This document shows, one piece after another, positions 3,987-38,030 of a stretch of 38,030 nucleotides of DNA. Numbering within the stretch: position 1 is the stretch's first letter; every line of letters starts with the position of its first letter. A program made the position numbers and the translations under genes. The notes beneath the pieces were generated by a model. That model searched no databases. It saw nothing but the letters and a program-made list of their open reading frames with translations, and had not been told where the DNA came from. This stretch comes from a virus. The stretch covers positions 1 to 38,030 of the IMG/VR virus record IMGVR_UViG_3300028595_000030, one strand, 5' to 3'.

Positions 3987-4391
3987 TTAACCTATCAATT
4001 TTAGAAGTTTCTCCAAATAATCTATTGCAGAACCATCTTTAACCATTACCGAATCTACTCTAAGAACCATGTAGCCGCAAAGCATGGCATAAGCGTATTT
4101 GTGACAATCTGAGTTGAAGCCCTTACCAGTCGTATGCCTTCCACCGTTCGGGGCGTAAGTGCCACCCTCAACCTCCATAATAACCTTTTGAGCGTCAAAG
4201 ATAAAGTCATAGCGCCAGCGTCTAGGTTGTTTGTCATTTAACTTCACATCTCGCCTAGATGGCTCTATACCCGCTGCTTGAAATTGCAACATCATTTGAC
4301 CTTCAAGGTCTGGCGGCTTGCGCTTTGTCCGGCTAGACTTTGGGCCTCTGCACTGTTTAAGCCACTGGCGTCGGGTTATGCGCTCAGTCAT
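3987..4391 (-). CDS. PD-(D/E)XK-type endonuclease, possible Holliday-junction resolvase
   Basis: A 134-residue protein. The basic N-terminus is followed by the core: 'RYDFIFD' (Asp62), 'VIMEVEGG' (Glu73, Glu75), 'GRHTTGKGFNSDCHK' (His86, Asp95, Lys98) and 'GYMVLRVD' (about 106-113). This order matches small phage nucleases of the DUF559 / very-short-patch-repair-like fold, often assigned as junction resolvases or debranching enzymes. It would act on branched replication intermediates before packaging, which fits a genome without its own polymerase. The start ATG overlaps the end of the zinc-ribbon gene upstream. The first six residues, MTERIT, are also encoded at the start of the mini-ORF at 4740-4796. 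Confidence 0.7.
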   Translation of the reverse strand: MTERITRRQWLKQCRGPKSSRTKRKPPDLEGQMMLQFQAAGIEPSRRDVKLNDKQPRRWRYDFIFDAQKVIMEVEGGTYAPNGGRHTTGKGFNSDCHKYAYAMLCGYMVLRVDSVMVKDGSAIDYLEKLLKLIG

Positions 4392-4747
4392 TAAACAATA
4401 CCTTCTAAAAAGGAAGGAGGAGCTTTGTCTAACAAATCTGAAAACGCTTGTCCGTTTAAAGTTACCCCAACTGCCTCTATATTGTTTTTTGATGTAAATT
4501 GTTTAGTTAAAATATCTGCAAAATAGTGGTAGTCAAAATCTGAATTTCTTTTAATATTTTCAACAAAGCTAGTTTGATCATCTTTCCAAAATACTTTTAT
4601 ATAAACGCTCTGAGTCATAATAATTCGTATAGGCATCCCGCACATTTTAAAATCTATTCTTTGATCGTTATTTACGCTACCGCAATAGCGACAAATAAAG
4701 TCTGGGTCGGGGGCAGCGCAATTTATACAAGTATGATATTTAGTCAC
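4391..4747 (-). CDS. Zinc-ribbon protein of unknown function
   Basis: About 118 residues from the GTG at 4747. A zinc-ribbon pair opens the protein: Cys-Ile-Asn-Cys, then Cys-Arg-Tyr-Cys about ten residues later. The rest is mixed alpha/beta with no motif I recognise. An upstream TTG at 4765 is in frame, but GTG at 4747 overlaps the stop of the 18-codon mini-ORF (GGTGACTAA), so reinitiation is plausible. Its 3' end (GGTATTGTTT before the next ATG) matches the 3' end of the glycosyltransferase-like gene at 5142, a shared junction sequence discussed in the findings. Confidence 0.6.
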   Translation of the reverse strand: MTKYHTCINCAAPDPDFICRYCGSVNNDQRIDFKMCGMPIRIIMTQSVYIKVFWKDDQTSFVENIKRNSDFDYHYFADILTKQFTSKNNIEAVGVTLNGQAFSDLLDKAPPSFLEGIV

Positions 4748-4796
4748 CAAACAATACCCGTTCAAGCGTATAATCTATGGTTATGCGCTCAGTCAT
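4740..4796 (-). pseudogene. 18-codon chimeric mini-ORF (recombination scar)
   Basis: It reads MTERITIDYTLERVLFGD then TAA. The first six codons match the start of the nuclease gene at 3987-4391; the remainder matches the last 13 or so codons of the sialyltransferase-like gene at 5142-5708 (ITIDYTLERVLFGN). The DNA agrees: 4779-4798 equals 4374-4393 (20 bp identical) and 4746-4784 equals 5148-5186 (one mismatch in 39). It sits exactly between two genes, with its ATG overlapping the TGA of the gene upstream and its stop overlapping a GTG downstream. It may be a scar that happens to be translated, keeping the operon coupled. Confidence 0.75.
4746..4784. repeat. 39-bp repeat, copy 1 (partner 5148-5186)
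   Basis: Direct repeat of the sequence at 5148-5186 with a single mismatch (G/A at 4779/5181). It codes for the C-terminal end of the glycosyltransferase-like gene at the other site and for most of the chimeric mini-ORF here. Confidence 0.9.
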
Positions 4797-5121
4797 TAGT
4801 TTTTTGTTTTATCAACTCAACCATTAATCCTAGTTCTCTTCCCATCGAGGCTATAGTTTCCTCTATTAATTCAACTCGGCGGTTGATATTTACTATATTA
4901 ATAACTTGCTTTTCGGAATCTTTACGCAAATTACGGTGTGTCGCTTCTACAGATAAGCGAATTTCTGCTACTTCTTTTAGCAACTCTTCTACCCACTTTG
5001 CCGGTCTGTCCCATCTTTGCATTGGCTCATCACAACACTTAATATCGCTTACTTCCACATTATCTGGAAGGTTGATAGTAGTTTCACAAATAGGGCAATA
5101 CCATTCAACTTTTTTAGTCAT
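4789..5121 (-). CDS. Zinc-ribbon plus coiled-coil protein
   Basis: A 110-residue protein. 'WYCPICETTI' gives one Cys-x2-Cys knuckle (Cys9, Cys12) and 'DIKCCDEPMQRW' the second half, together a short treble-clef or ribbon. From about residue 45 on it is a charged helix (KEVAEIRLSVEATHRNLRK... to MVELIKQK) that should form a coiled coil. It could be a small nucleic-acid-binding or adaptor protein. The ribosome site is AAAGGG in the leader TATAAAGGGTAAAATAATG; exactly 18 bases of it also appear at 30979-30996. Its TGA overlaps the ATG of the mini-ORF. Confidence 0.6.
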   Translation of the reverse strand: MTKKVEWYCPICETTINLPDNVEVSDIKCCDEPMQRWDRPAKWVEELLKEVAEIRLSVEATHRNLRKDSEKQVINIVNINRRVELIEETIASMGRELGLMVELIKQKTND

Positions 5122-5141
5122 TATTTTACCCTTTATAGTTT

Positions 5142-5708
5142 TTAATTACCAAACAATACCCGTTCAAGCGTATAATCTATAGTTATTCGCTTATCTTCTT
5201 CTATCTTATTTCTAATCCAATTAGCGTGCTTTTCTTTATCGTGCTTGCCTAAGTTTTTAGGATTTAAGTCCATACCAGTTAGGTATAATTGACGTATAGG
5301 AAAGCTTAGAAGGTCGTTAATCGCAAAAAAGCCGGTAAAGGCATACTCACACCCTAGTTCACTGCAAAATGGCTCTAGGCGCTCCTTGTGGGCGTGACAG
5401 TTCATGCATATGGTTCTTATTGGTATGCCTGTAGCTTCGAACTTTTCTATGCTTTGAGGTTTTAAAGAATTGGTAACTATAAAACTAGGCTTAAAATTAG
5501 GAAGCATTTTTGTTACATTTTCTGGATCTGAACCGGAATGATAAAGAATGTCACATCTTACTTTTATTTGCTCATGCAAATGAGATCCGACACGAGCGAC
5601 AATATCGCCATAACGACTAATATGCCAGTAATTATACGTTTCACTTCCACCTACTAGGCAAACTCGTTTCCCCTCTAGCTTTGTTCTGTAAAGTTCGTCA
5701 ATATCCAT
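5142..5708 (-). CDS. Sialyltransferase-like (GT29-like) glycosyltransferase
   Basis: 188 residues from the ATG at 5708, which follows a strong GGGGAGGAT site; a longer frame reaches 5729. Residues 17-40 (CLVGGSETYN... to ...GDIVARV) match the L-motif logic of GT29 sialyltransferases (beta strand, V-G-G/N, then a D-x-V-x-R-V/F strand), followed by RCDILY (51-56). Residues 125-147 (TGFFAINDLL...LYLTGMD) match the S-motif logic (T/S-G-x-x-A ... Y-x-x-G-x-D). I infer transfer of a sugar from a nucleotide donor, perhaps onto host envelope glycan, phage DNA or a virion protein. It overlaps the GT2-like gene upstream by 34 bp, implying a joint job. Donor and acceptor cannot be read. Confidence 0.6.
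   Translation of the reverse strand: MDIDELYRTKLEGKRVCLVGGSETYNYWHISRYGDIVARVGSHLHEQIKVRCDILYHSGSDPENVTKMLPNFKPSFIVTNSLKPQSIEKFEATGIPIRTICMNCHAHKERLEPFCSELGCEYAFTGFFAINDLLSFPIRQLYLTGMDLNPKNLGKHDKEKHANWIRNKIEEDKRITIDYTLERVLFGN
5148..5186. repeat. 39-bp repeat, copy 2 (partner 4746-4784)
   Basis: Likely parental copy: it lies inside an intact reading frame, the last codons of the gene at 5142-5708, whereas the partner lies in an 18-codon chimera. Confidence 0.9.
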
Positions 5709-6416: not shown

Positions 6417-6686
6417 TTACTCTCTTTCAATAACTAATCTTTTTACAAGATATTTTAAAGTTTTAGCTGAGTCGAGTTTTGGATCTTTTGTTGATATATA
6501 CAAAAGCTCATTAAGAACTCTAAAAAGATACTCATCTAGCAGTCCTTGCATGTCATAACATCCAAAAGAATCAATCTTAGGAGTGATTCTAAAAGCGTTA
6601 TTTCTTTCTTGAATAACATCAAAAGAAATTTCCACTTCTCGCATTACATCAGCATTAAATTTTAAAGGTTTGTCTATGCCTTTCAT
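6417..6686 (-). CDS. Hypothetical 89-residue protein
   Basis: It starts MKGIDKPLKFNADVMREVEISFDVI after an AAAGGG ribosome site (TGTAAAGGGTAAG-ATG), the same leader style as the genes at 5121 and 7596. It is a mixed, soluble protein whose last 30 residues form a basic helix (AKTLKYLVKRLVIERE). I do not recognise the family. It is the first gene after the tRNA-bearing gap and directly precedes the glycosyltransferase pair. Confidence 0.55.
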   Translation of the reverse strand: MKGIDKPLKFNADVMREVEISFDVIQERNNAFRITPKIDSFGCYDMQGLLDEYLFRVLNELLYISTKDPKLDSAKTLKYLVKRLVIERE

Positions 6687-7041
6687 CTTACCCTTTACAA
6701 TTCAAACCAAAAAAATACCCGCCTATAAAAGCGCCTAGCTAGTTCTATAGCAACTTAAAAAGCTAAACTAGTTATCTAGGACTCCTTAACTCGGAAGCTA
6801 AGTTTCTGCCTTTCCACTTGCGTCTTAAAACTTAAAAATAAAAATACTTTATACTTACAACTTTAACCTTAATACTTCCCAGAGATAAGTTGTGTACATA
6901 ATAGGACTCGAACCTATATCATTTCTTATGCGTAAAGAACGCTCAGCCATTTGAGCTATATGTAATAAGTTATTGTAGTTTCTAAGTGACTACACACTTT
7001 TAAGTTTTTTAGTTTTCTCTTTTACATCGGGTATAGTTATA
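6687..7041. other. 355-bp gap without protein genes, holding the tRNA-like gene
   Basis: I find no convincing reading frame on either strand. The right half holds the tRNA-like sequence (6893-6965). The left half (6700-6890) contains 'GGCAGAAACTTAGCTTCCGAGTTAAGG' when read on the minus strand in pieces: an anticodon-arm-like hairpin (CTTA/TAAG) but no T-arm or acceptor stem, so a decayed second tRNA is only a guess. AT content rises near 6830-6870. Confidence 0.5.
6893..6965 (-). tRNA. tRNA-like gene, anticodon CGC by position (tRNA-Ala?) with A at position 33
   Basis: Read on the minus strand it folds as a 73-nt cloverleaf: acceptor TTACATA/TATGTAC (six of seven pairs; first pair T-C), D arm GCTC/GAGC with an 8-nt loop containing GG, anticodon stem TTCTT/AAGAA, 5-nt variable region, T arm ATAGG/CCTAT with loop TTCGAGT, discriminator A. 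The 7-nt anticodon loop is TACGCAT, so standard numbering gives anticodon CGC (Ala, codon GCG). Position 33 is A rather than the near-universal T, and no CCA is encoded. It is either a divergent working tRNA, a tRNA-like element (for example a decoy for host nucleases) or a decaying copy. Confidence 0.65.
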
Positions 7042-10548: not shown

Positions 10549-10934
10549 TCTCCTACCTCCTTAAAGTCTTCATCGTATTCGCTAAGCCAAGCGTCTAGTG
10601 CTTCTTGTGGAGTTTTATAACAACGGGAACTTTTATAGTGATCAATGCGGACATCTTCATCAGTTATAAAAATACTTTGGACTTTTCTTTTCAAAATAGC
10701 ATCAGATACAATCACCCATATAGTTTCGCCTATATCAAACTTAGGCTGAAAGGTTTTAGGCTCTTCTGCTCTTGTGTCCCATGCTTGCCATGCTCGTTTC
10801 TTACTTGAATACGTCGCAGAGCTACTTCCACAATCTTCACAGGAAACCAACCAAGAGTCTTCTGTAGTTAAGCTTTTGAGTGCTTCTAGCTCAGGTAGAC
10901 CACCACAGTAAGGGCACTTCTTATGCTCGCTCAT
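10545..10934 (-). CDS. Second Lar-like zinc protein with beta domain
   Basis: A 129-residue protein. Zinc ribbon: 'KKCPYCGG' (Cys7, Cys10), 'VSCEDCGS' (Cys32, Cys35), closing with 'AWQAWDTR' as in Lar-type domains (the Trp-Asn is Trp-Asp here). Residues about 60-115 repeat the design of the paralogue at 9519: 'FDIGETIWVIV', strands, then 'CYKTPQEALDAWL'. Restriction alleviation is a possible role by family, not shown. It overlaps both neighbours by four bases. Confidence 0.6.
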   Translation of the reverse strand: MSEHKKCPYCGGLPELEALKSLTTEDSWLVSCEDCGSSSATYSSKKRAWQAWDTRAEEPKTFQPKFDIGETIWVIVSDAILKRKVQSIFITDEDVRIDHYKSSRCYKTPQEALDAWLSEYDEDFKEVGE

Positions 10935-11224
10935 TTCTTTTCCTCCACTAGCTCGTATGTTTGTTCAAAAGCTTTTGCAGATAAAACTTCAAACTCCTTA
11001 GCCGGACGGTTTATTATATAATCCCCATGATTAGCAAAATATTGGTGAAAGCGATCCTTCTTAAAAGTTGCTACGAAGTATCTCGTCTGATCAGTTATTC
11101 CAGATGAAACTTCAACCTCCCTCTTATCTATAGCTTTCTGGAACCACTCAGGATACTCAGTCTTGCCATCAACTCTAAGCTGAAACGCTTCAATCTCTAC
11201 TGGCTTTTTTCTGTACTTTGGCAT
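10931..11224 (-). CDS. 'KYRKKPVEIEAFQ' family phage protein, copy A
   Basis: A 97-residue protein beginning MPKYRKKPVEIEAFQL, a signature of a very common but uncharacterised small phage protein family: E-A-x-x-(F/W), P-E-W, beta strands, 'GDYIINRP', then 'F-x-x-T-Y-E'. It is a tandem duplicate of the gene at 11322: the first 18 codons are almost identical in DNA and the proteins then diverge strongly. Function unknown. Confidence 0.7.
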   Translation of the reverse strand: MPKYRKKPVEIEAFQLRVDGKTEYPEWFQKAIDKREVEVSSGITDQTRYFVATFKKDRFHQYFANHGDYIINRPAKEFEVLSAKAFEQTYELVEEKK

Positions 11225-11280
11225 TGCGTGTTCTCCCTTTCATAATCTAACAGCATTTGTATAGCTATCTTTTTTGCTTC
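11150..11280. repeat. Duplicated cassette segment, copy A (partner about 11523-11655)
   Basis: About 130 bp repeated in tandem at a distance of 373 bp, covering the 5' ends of both paralogues and the leader upstream of each. Blocks of 25 or more bases are identical around the two start codons; the remainder has scattered differences. Confidence 0.85.
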
Positions 11281-11322
11281 TTGCCAATATAAAAACGTGG
11301 CTCCAGTTGGTATATCCTCCAC
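11197..11322 (-). CDS. 41-residue protein between duplicated genes
   Basis: Starts at a GTG that overlaps the stop of the upstream gene (TAGTG) and reads (M)EDIPTGATFLYWQEAKKIAIQML..., running 28 bp into the next gene in another frame. The helical core 'KKIAIQMxLDYE' is repeated as a fragment before the other paralogue (about 11600-11650) but there it is closed upstream by a stop, so this copy is the only open one. It may be a real small gene whose partner copy has decayed. Confidence 0.45.
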   Translation of the reverse strand: MEDIPTGATFLYWQEAKKIAIQMLLDYERENTQCQSTEKSQ

Positions 11323-11597
11323 TATTCCTCCAATAGCTCGTATGTTTGTTTCATATACACAGGGCACCAAACTTCAATAGAACCATCTGAGAGCTTGACT
11401 ATATAATCCCCTAGTCCCGCTCTCATGTCTTCAATCTCAACTTGAAAACATCCTGTCCCTTCATCTGAGTATCCAGACTGTATTTGAGCCTCGCCGCTTA
11501 TTAGTAGCTTCTGAAACCACTCAGGGAAATCAGTCTTACCATCTGTATTAAGCTGAAACGCTTCAATCTCTACTGGCTTTTTTCTGTATTTTGGCAT
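11322..11597 (-). CDS. 'KYRKKPVEIEAFQ' family phage protein, copy B
   Basis: A 91-residue protein with the same opening as copy A. The middle is different (SGYSDEGTGCFQVEIEDMRAGLGDYIVKLSDGSIEVWCP) and closer to the usual family form, where Gly-Asp-Tyr-Ile-(I/V)-Lys is followed by a Gly and a Pro/Cys before the closing Thr-Tyr-Glu. It probably resembles the ancestral copy more. Function unknown. Confidence 0.7.
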   Translation of the reverse strand: MPKYRKKPVEIEAFQLNTDGKTDFPEWFQKLLISGEAQIQSGYSDEGTGCFQVEIEDMRAGLGDYIVKLSDGSIEVWCPVYMKQTYELLEE

Positions 11598-11655
11598 TGT
11601 GTGTTCTTCTTTTCGTAATCTAACCGCATTTGTATAGCTATCTTTTTTGCTTTAC
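11523..11655. repeat. Duplicated cassette segment, copy B
   Basis: Partner of 11150-11280. Just upstream of the shared part an in-frame TAG cuts off the small frame that is open in copy A, while the sequence outside the repeat is unrelated, so the ends of the duplication are visible. Confidence 0.85.
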
Positions 11656-16429: not shown

Positions 16430-17326
16430 CTAGTAATCTAAATCTTGGTCTGGATCGCCTAAAGCTTTTTCCATTTCTATATCGTGTCTAAGTTTTTCGT
16501 CTCGTGCTAGTGCTGCAAGCTCCTCTTCCTTTTTTGCCGCAAGCTTTTCTTTATACTCTTCTCGCAGCTCGTTCATGCGTGCTTCGATCGCGTGGATCGC
16601 ATATTCCGACATATCCGGCATGTATTTATCTAAGTGTTTTTTGAGGAAAATTCCGTTGTCGACTTTTGAAATCGGTTGACCTTTTTTTGAGCCAAATTCC
16701 ATGATGTACTCGCCAGTCTCCAGCGCTCGTTCCAACTTCTCAGACTTCATACGCTCAGAGTTTGCAGCTCTCATACGTGCTTCGTCTTCAGCCGCAGCGT
16801 TGTCAATCGCTTCTAGCTCTGCGTGTATTTCCTCTTGCTCTTCTATTTCTTGCGCCTCTTCCTGCGTATAAATTGCACCTGCAAAAACATCAGCGCAGTA
16901 CCATCTTGCGCCGTTCGTTAATGCTCTGGCAAAAAGCATATTACGAGGATATTTGCTGTAATTCCCACCGCTTAATCCTGCTTTTTTTGCATCAGACATC
17001 GAAAACGAGGATTCTCCTATCGATTCTTTGTCTTGCAAAAATTCAATAACGCATACCTCGTCTGTCATTTTCTTGATGCGATAATCGTATTTACCGCTTT
17101 TTTTAATAAGGTTAGCGATACAAGATGAGTTCGGTGCTGCTTTCCCTTTGATGATATCCACACCCCGCATTGCGGCAAAGGGTCCTAGACCTAGCTCTTT
17201 ACCTGCTAGAATTTTTACAATCGCCTGACTTTGAGTTTTTACGTCTGGAAACATCCCCGACTGGATAAAAACCTTAGCCATATCTTGCATTTCCTGAAAG
17301 TTTGTTATTGCTAGCTCTTTACTCAT
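16430..17326 (-). CDS. Annealing-protein-like (RecT-type) protein with ExoX-like C-terminal domain
   Basis: A 298-residue protein. Residues 10-160 match a widespread phage group annotated as RecT-type recombinase: 'FIQSGMFPDVKTQSQAIVKILAGKELGLGPFAAMRGVDII', then 'GKYDYRIKKMTDE', 'SDAKKAGLSGGNYSKYPRNMLFARALTNGARWYCADVF'. Residues about 205-235 ('GEYIMEFGSKKGQPISKVDNGIFLKKHL') fit the small domain at the C-terminus of exodeoxyribonuclease X (F-G-x-x-K-G-x-x-x). The N-terminal part would anneal single strands. A charged helical linker joins the two and another ends the protein. It sits directly before the DUF1351-like gene in the transcript. Confidence 0.72.
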   Translation of the reverse strand: MSKELAITNFQEMQDMAKVFIQSGMFPDVKTQSQAIVKILAGKELGLGPFAAMRGVDIIKGKAAPNSSCIANLIKKSGKYDYRIKKMTDEVCVIEFLQDKESIGESSFSMSDAKKAGLSGGNYSKYPRNMLFARALTNGARWYCADVFAGAIYTQEEAQEIEEQEEIHAELEAIDNAAAEDEARMRAANSERMKSEKLERALETGEYIMEFGSKKGQPISKVDNGIFLKKHLDKYMPDMSEYAIHAIEARMNELREEYKEKLAAKKEEELAALARDEKLRHDIEMEKALGDPDQDLDY

Positions 17327-36721: not shown

Positions 36722-37969
36722 ATGGCAGACGCAACATTACAAGCAATACTATCGCAATACCAAAATCAGCCTAACATGTGGGCGCAGATGAATCGGGGCA
36801 TCCAACAGTATCAGATGCCGGCATCCGCATACGGGGCGAAAGGTAGCCCTATAGTGGCCGCTTTGCAGGGGCTTGCTAGTGGCTACACTGGCAGTCGTGC
36901 GCAGGCTCAAGAGCAACAGAACCAAGCGGGTTTGCAGCAAGCGTTACAGCAGTATGAAGCACAACAGAGGCAACAGAAGCAAGCCGACTGGAAAGCACAA
37001 CAAGAGTTTTTAACTGGGCAACGTGTTAGTCAAGCAAACCAAATAGCTAAAACACAACAGGAGATGGAGCAGGCTAATTTTCCTCAGAAGTTGAAACAAG
37101 AAGGGCAGCTAGCCGGAGCAAGAGCGGCGGCAAAGGCAAAATACACCAAAGCTGGAACGCAATATTCCCCTAGCGATGAATTTGCTTCCGTTATGGCTAA
37201 AAAGTTAGTAAAAAGGGGTTCTTTTGCAGATGAAGAAACTGCCTTTAATGCTGTTAAAAAAGACTTTAAAGGCTTTGAATCTTTGCAAAAAGAAAGAAGG
37301 CTAGACCTTGCTCAACAACAGCAAGAAGGCGTTTCTAGTAGGTTCCAAGACAAGCTTTCAAGAAGTGATGCAGAGCGTGTAATCCCAGGTTACACAGTCG
37401 AAAGTGGACGTTTAACTTCAGAACAAGCAGGGAAAATCAAAGAACAAAATAAAGACACTGAGAAGCTAATTAATACATTATATGAAATTTCGGGGCGTGA
37501 TCTTTCTAAGTATATGGGCGAAGGTAGTTCGATGAACCAAGCTCTTGCAGGGCAAGCGTTTAATATATGGAGAATAGCAACGGGATCTGGTGCAAGGCTT
37601 GAAGGTATTGAAGGTACTATCATTGAAAATATGACACCTGCCGCAATGGCTCATGACCCTGTAAGAGCAATCGGGGAATGGCTAAAAGGGCGTGACCAAA
37701 ATACATTTGCAGTTGAATTAGCTAAATTTGTAGAAAAAGAACACGATGCATCCTTGTTAGCTTATGGCATTAAGAAACAAGGTGTTTCTGATGATTACTA
37801 TTCAAATCGTATGAAAACAAGATATCCCGAATTGTTTCCTAACGCTAAAAAAGATCGGGAACAAGCTACTATAACGCCTTTGAGTAGTGAACCTAACCCA
37901 ACAAATTATAAGTCATTAGATGAATACCAAGCGGAGCTGTTAAAATGGCACCAACAGAACAAGAAATAA
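36722..37969 (+). CDS. Ejection/internal virion protein, Gln-rich
   Basis: A 415-residue protein. The N-terminal 120 residues are Gln/Ala-rich ('YQNQPNMWAQMNRGIQQYQMPASAYG... EQQNQAGLQQALQQYEAQQRQQKQADWKAQQEF' region) and helical, the middle has 'ARAAAKAKYTKAG', and the C-terminal half is charged with a weakly hydrophobic segment near 270-290. It ends 'EYQAELLKWHQQNKK'; its last 25 bases overlap the start of the 701-residue gene. The last 109 bp also occur at the left window edge as part of the terminal repeat. Function by position: DNA ejection. Confidence 0.62.
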   Translation: MADATLQAILSQYQNQPNMWAQMNRGIQQYQMPASAYGAKGSPIVAALQGLASGYTGSRAQAQEQQNQAGLQQALQQYEAQQRQQKQADWKAQQEFLTGQRVSQANQIAKTQQEMEQANFPQKLKQEGQLAGARAAAKAKYTKAGTQYSPSDEFASVMAKKLVKRGSFADEETAFNAVKKDFKGFESLQKERRLDLAQQQQEGVSSRFQDKLSRSDAERVIPGYTVESGRLTSEQAGKIKEQNKDTEKLINTLYEISGRDLSKYMGEGSSMNQALAGQAFNIWRIATGSGARLEGIEGTIIENMTPAAMAHDPVRAIGEWLKGRDQNTFAVELAKFVEKEHDASLLAYGIKKQGVSDDYYSNRMKTRYPELFPNAKKDREQATITPLSSEPNPTNYKSLDEYQAELLKWHQQNKK

Positions 37970-38030
37970 AAGAGATTGCCCGCATAAAATGGGAGGCGGC
38001 ACAAAAATGGGAGGCGGCACAGCAAGCATC
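37859..38030. repeat. Terminal redundancy, right copy
   Basis: Second copy of the 172-base overlap at 1-172. It contains the end of the 415-residue gene and the first 28 or so codons of the 701-residue gene, whose full copy is at 87-2192. Removing one copy gives a unit of 37,858 bp in which the plus-strand virion genes are continuous across the edge. Confidence 0.95.

Follow-up and report, generated by a model that had tools for sequence, protein, structure and literature searches.

A chimeric 18-codon reading frame as a probable recombination scar in the accessory operon of a phage genome

The window, that is, the whole stretch of DNA that was analyzed, is the entire virus record IMGVR_UViG_3300028595_000030 (38,030 bases), and this one record, which is probably metagenomic, provides the sequence basis for everything reported here. 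Because the first 172 bases recur at the end with one mismatch (1-172 versus 37859-38030, the ends not being identical), the genome is probably that of a complete, circularly closing phage of about 37.86 kb. The plus strand carries the structural genes and the minus strand carries the replication and accessory genes; the latter run toward the structural genes and stop at about 3,400. Close to the 3' end of this minus-strand operon, the genes are arranged in the order GT2-type glycosyltransferase, putative glycosyltransferase (GT), ORF110, an 18-codon mini-ORF, a zinc-ribbon-like gene and a DUF559-like nuclease gene (Table 1). A tRNA-Ala gene with the anticodon CGC lies within the accessory region (6892-6965, minus), and an Rfam search near the locus returned nothing beyond a tRNA. 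Four genes of the operon end have an unusual leader resembling TATAAAGGGTAAA directly before the start codon (7612-7593, 6704-6684, 6415-6398 and 5140-5119, minus), which is unlike the AGGAGG-type sites that precede many other genes of the same genome.

Table 1. Genes and repeated segments at the mini-ORF locus, with the RecT-like gene of the same genome
Feature	Position	Strand	Remarks
GT2-type glycosyltransferase	upstream of GT	minus	Pfam Glycos_transf_2
GT, putative glycosyltransferase, 188 aa	5142..5708	minus	no database match
ORF110, orphan	4789..5121	minus	weak Zn-ribbon (LysW-like) signal
Chimeric mini-ORF, MTERITIDYTLERVLFGD, 18 codons	4740..4796	minus	direct reading
Zinc-ribbon-like gene, GTG start, 118 aa, orphan	4391..4747	minus	
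DUF559-like (restriction-endonuclease-like) nuclease gene	3987..4391	minus	phrog_503, E 4e-25; homologues in phages and IMG/VR
RecT-like ssDNA annealing protein	16430..17326	minus	phrog_561, E 1e-28
20-bp copy of nuclease start, TAATGACTGAGCGCATAACC	4779..4798	minus	20/20 identical to 4374-4393
Original of the 20-bp repeat, nuclease gene start	4374..4393	minus	
33-bp copy of GT tail	4746..4778	minus	33/33 identical to 5148-5180
Original of the GT-tail repeat, last GT codons	5148..5180	minus	
Third copy of GGTATTGTTT	4393..4402	minus	zinc-ribbon gene end, directly before nuclease start

The names given to the neighboring genes differ in how well they are founded. No match with a meaningful E-value was obtained for the GT in Pfam, PHROGs or PDB, and its single-sequence structure prediction was too poor for use (mean pLDDT 39.7). 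The earlier description of this gene as sialyltransferase-like thus found neither a family nor a structure match. For the zinc-ribbon label, matches do exist, but all of them fall below the cut-off. The nuclease label is a fair one, given the family match listed in Table 1 and the phage homologues annotated as DUF559 or very-short-patch-repair endonuclease. A BLASTP comparison of ORF110 with the zinc-ribbon protein showed no similarity.

The mini-ORF reads ATG ACT GAG CGC ATA ACC ATA GAT TAT ACG CTT GAA CGG GTA TTG TTT GGT GAC TAA, which is 18 codons and a stop. Its start, together with the two bases before it, is the 20-bp copy of the nuclease start, and the identical block from the GT tail follows directly, the two blocks abutting exactly at 4778|4779. 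When mismatches are allowed, the match to the GT tail extends to 58 nt at 88% identity (4732-4789 versus 5134-5191), within which 38 of 39 nt agree. Both repeats of the original prediction (20 bp identical and 39 bp with one mismatch) were recovered mechanically, as the 20-bp block and the 58-nt match, and direct reading bore out its proposal that the mini-ORF joins the start of the nuclease gene to the end of the GT. The longest exact match between the mini-ORF and the surrounding genes is 33 nt, as compared with a maximum of 15 and a mean of 8.6 in 500 shuffles. In addition, GGTATTGTTT recurs at all three junctions, as had been noted before; there are exactly three copies in the 38-kb record, all on the minus strand and all at these junctions, against an expected count of 0.007 in the 3.3-kb operon end.

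Both segments of the mini-ORF therefore have an identical counterpart elsewhere in the locus, and they are joined in the order that a recombination junction would give. The GT lies upstream of the nuclease gene, and in the mini-ORF this order is reversed, with the nuclease start followed by the GT end. Out-of-register recombination would be expected to leave just such a fusion between the two genes. At the point of the switch, the GT (AGCGAATAAC) and the nuclease gene (AGCGCATAAC) share the microhomology AGCG[A/C]ATAAC, which agrees in 9 of 10 positions and is in the same reading frame in both genes (codons for R-I-T). Agreement as good as that at the switch point, in at least 9 of 11 positions, occurs in only 2.3e-4 of all 11-nt window pairs from these two genes. 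Where the bases of the two genes differ in this stretch, the mini-ORF carries the nuclease version, which places the switch at the downstream end of the shared stretch. The two abutting exact repeats, the gene order and the imperfect microhomology together give strong support to the reading of the mini-ORF as a chimeric recombination scar.

The mini-ORF is probably a novel junction that arose when two phage molecules recombined out of register, both with the GT and the nuclease gene and each with a different gene between them. The first molecule would have had the order GT-ORF110-nuclease and the second GT-zinc-ribbon-nuclease. If the first molecule was joined, near its nuclease start, to the GT end of the second at the imperfect 10-nt homology, the product would be GT, ORF110, the fused nuclease start and GT end, the zinc-ribbon gene and the nuclease gene, with both middle genes kept in tandem. 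The zinc-ribbon gene would thus have arrived attached to the tail of the donor GT and been stacked behind ORF110. This is the most likely route of arrival, since the GT-tail copy is situated directly upstream of the zinc-ribbon gene, and it sharpens the original prediction, in which either a zinc-ribbon or a glycosyltransferase module had moved, to a zinc-ribbon gene with a GT tail.

Deletions made in silico across the repeats agree well with this arrangement. Deletion across the 33-bp repeat leaves a GT ending in ERVLFGD* that overlaps the zinc-ribbon start by 8 nt, and deletion across the 20-bp repeat leaves an ORF110 ending in KTND* that overlaps the nuclease start by 8 nt. In both deduced parents, the genes are intact and overlap tightly, as in a tidy phage operon. 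It is also conceivable, at long odds, that the locus is a reversible stack of two alleles, which the phage's own annealing protein could resolve to either parental form by means of the 33-bp and 20-bp repeats. If so, the phage population would carry and re-sort both accessory genes at one site.

The same junction would result from a process within one lineage, in which unequal crossover between sister genomes duplicated the interval from the GT end to the nuclease start in tandem and one middle gene was then replaced or diverged to an extreme degree. This counts against the need for two parents, and the same genome does contain another tandem duplication with recognizable paralogues. Descent within a single lineage is nonetheless judged unlikely, as it needs a second event for the replacement, and as no likeness can be detected between the middle proteins although the repeats on either side of them are 100% identical. 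The homologous middle genes that simple tandem gene duplication would produce were not found by BLASTP, and simple duplication is unlikely because ORF110 and the zinc-ribbon protein lack similarity between repeats that are identical. We infer two donors from this combination of features.

The third copy of GGTATTGTTT, directly before the nuclease gene, requires an event additional to the exchange between the two molecules and in this respect counts against that model. It points to a previous event of this type, which would have joined the zinc-ribbon gene to a GT tail situated directly upstream of the nuclease gene. Deletion in silico between the outer copies of GGTATTGTTT gives a GT ending in ERVLFND that overlaps the nuclease gene by 8 nt. 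A GT directly before the nuclease gene may therefore be a still older state, in line with the gene order that the original prediction had proposed to look for, although this step is weaker than the others in that it relies on a 10-nt identity.

The recurrence of GGTATTGTTT at three junctions could also be taken to mean that the repeats have a function as DNA or RNA elements, such as a promoter, a terminator or a regulatory site, that happen to sit at gene ends. A promoter-like match at 5152-5123 would fit this explanation, as would the region before ORF89 (6750-6685), which resembles the GT tail and ORF110 leader better than other unrelated genome sites do. It is very improbable all the same, because the repeats reach into coding frames and their abutting blocks correspond to two different genes. 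Comparisons with shuffled sequences leave both the RNA-structure and the promoter readings unsupported: promoter-like sites are no commoner than in shuffles, and RNA folding is no better than in shuffles (z 0.40 for the mini-ORF and -0.25 for the GT end).

An assembly artefact in a metagenomic contig is the least probable explanation and can be regarded as extremely remote. The locus is represented by a single virus record without reads, the repeats measure 20-33 bp and near relatives may be missing from the collections. The exact overlap at the fusion point, however, is about 5 bp (9/10 imperfect), which is too short for k-mer joining, and reordering across the repeats would be expected to leave closed circles.

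The frame of the mini-ORF was predicted to keep start-stop overlaps with both neighbors and, in this way, translational coupling. The overlaps are present and measure 8 nt on each side, with ATGACTGA (4789-4796) shared with ORF110 and GTGACTAA (4740-4747) shared with the zinc-ribbon gene. Coupling is plausible in view of the poor Shine-Dalgarno pairing: among the 53 starts scored, ribosome-site pairing is weakest at the mini-ORF, which has no Shine-Dalgarno pairing and whose neighbors have little, the zinc-ribbon and nuclease starts being weak. Because the ribosome sites of all three frames are weak, translation there would depend on ribosomes arriving from ORF110 via the overlapping stops and starts, and the mini-ORF probably only hands these ribosomes on. 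The overlaps on both sides and the plausibility of coupling through the mini-ORF, given its lack of pairing and the little pairing of the zinc-ribbon gene, could be read as signs that the mini-ORF encodes a small peptide with a function, or is a translational coupler under selection, and is more than a passive scar. This is highly improbable, as pieces taken over from two genes account for the whole sequence, both overlaps come from the deduced parents and there are no homologues to show selection.

Relatives of the locus were sought by DNA and protein searches of phage records, and none were found except distant nucleases. No relatives of the GT, the GT2-type glycosyltransferase, ORF110 or the zinc-ribbon protein were present in IMG/VR, in collections that may omit very near records; none of the GT were found in species genomes, and the exact GT-tail DNA had no match in IMG/VR. 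The other genes of the operon end are absent from 80 related nuclease loci and from 80 related terminase loci. The closest terminases share about 50-54% identity along most of the protein, and 50 of the records that carry them contain neither the nuclease nor the GT. Neither parental arrangement was found in the collections searched, and the ancestral gene orders are accordingly those deduced from this sequence.

The genome contains at least two such junctions, as indicated by a second duplication scar. A tandem duplication at 10931-11652 (minus) involves a small phage gene (MPKYRKKPVEIEAFQL...), with paralogues at 11322-11597 and 10931-11224. Its repeat (11099-11279 / 11472-11652) covers 182 nt at 84% identity and extends about 55 nt beyond the duplicated gene on its upstream side, where a small frame is longer in one copy (VEDIPTGATFLYWQEAKKIAIQ...) and truncated to its tail in the other. 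Separately, the segment at 6685-6765 (minus), before ORF89, shows likeness to the GT tail and ORF110 leader (CGGGTATT..TTTGGT ... TGTAAAGGGTAAGATG) together with a terminator-like hairpin, and is possibly a further, decayed copy.

A plausible agent of the exchange is the RecT-like protein encoded by the phage itself; the event may have been RecT-mediated or simply an illegitimate exchange between co-infecting relatives. The lambda and RecET recombinases recombine diverged DNA (PMC2327257), and RecET is reported to recombine sequences of 5-13 bp in earlier work cited in that article. Such recombinases drive the mosaicism of temperate phages (PMC3945230). The locus resembles the relaxed recombination described for the Rad52-like phage recombinases Red-beta, RecT and Erf (PMC2327257, PMC3945230) in its combination of a phage-own RecT-like protein with short, imperfect homology. 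Assays of these proteins concern exchange between diverged homologous sequences, whereas the exchange proposed here would be out of register at about 10 nt. The locus provides a small example that bears on whether illegitimate or relaxed homologous recombination gives rise to phage mosaicism.

The zinc-ribbon gene does not have the promoter and terminator of its own that define a classical phage moron; it overlaps both neighbors, and shuffled sequences contain promoter-like sites at least as often. For this reason, its gain is gene accretion and not the acquisition of a classical moron. In general, unequal crossover and tandem duplication also leave a junction in which the start of a downstream gene is fused to the end of an upstream gene and sited between both. 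The present interval differs from these cases in that it holds two unrelated genes and not two copies of one.

The nearest published case found is that of mycobacteriophage LRRHood, in which a 1.35-kb segment is flanked by 29-bp direct repeats (PMC3029335). The extra genes split a pair that is contiguous in relatives, where the repeat is single, and the arrangement was read as gain or loss by repeat recombination (PMC3029335). Both loci have extra genes flanked by a short direct repeat. At the present locus, however, one repeat pair belongs to the nuclease start (20 bp) and the other to the GT tail (33 bp), the two are fused into an in-frame mini-ORF, and no repeat-free relative was found in the collections searched. 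No identical case was found in the literature searched. As a legible record, the locus would illustrate how a phage gains a gene without losing the resident one, since one exchange out of register, at about ten imperfectly matching bases, would stack two alternative genes while both neighbors can still be read. It also indicates that a very small overlapping frame in a phage operon can be the scar of a junction and not a gene. The locus reveals no new system; it is a new and unusually legible instance of the known, ordinary mosaicism of phages.
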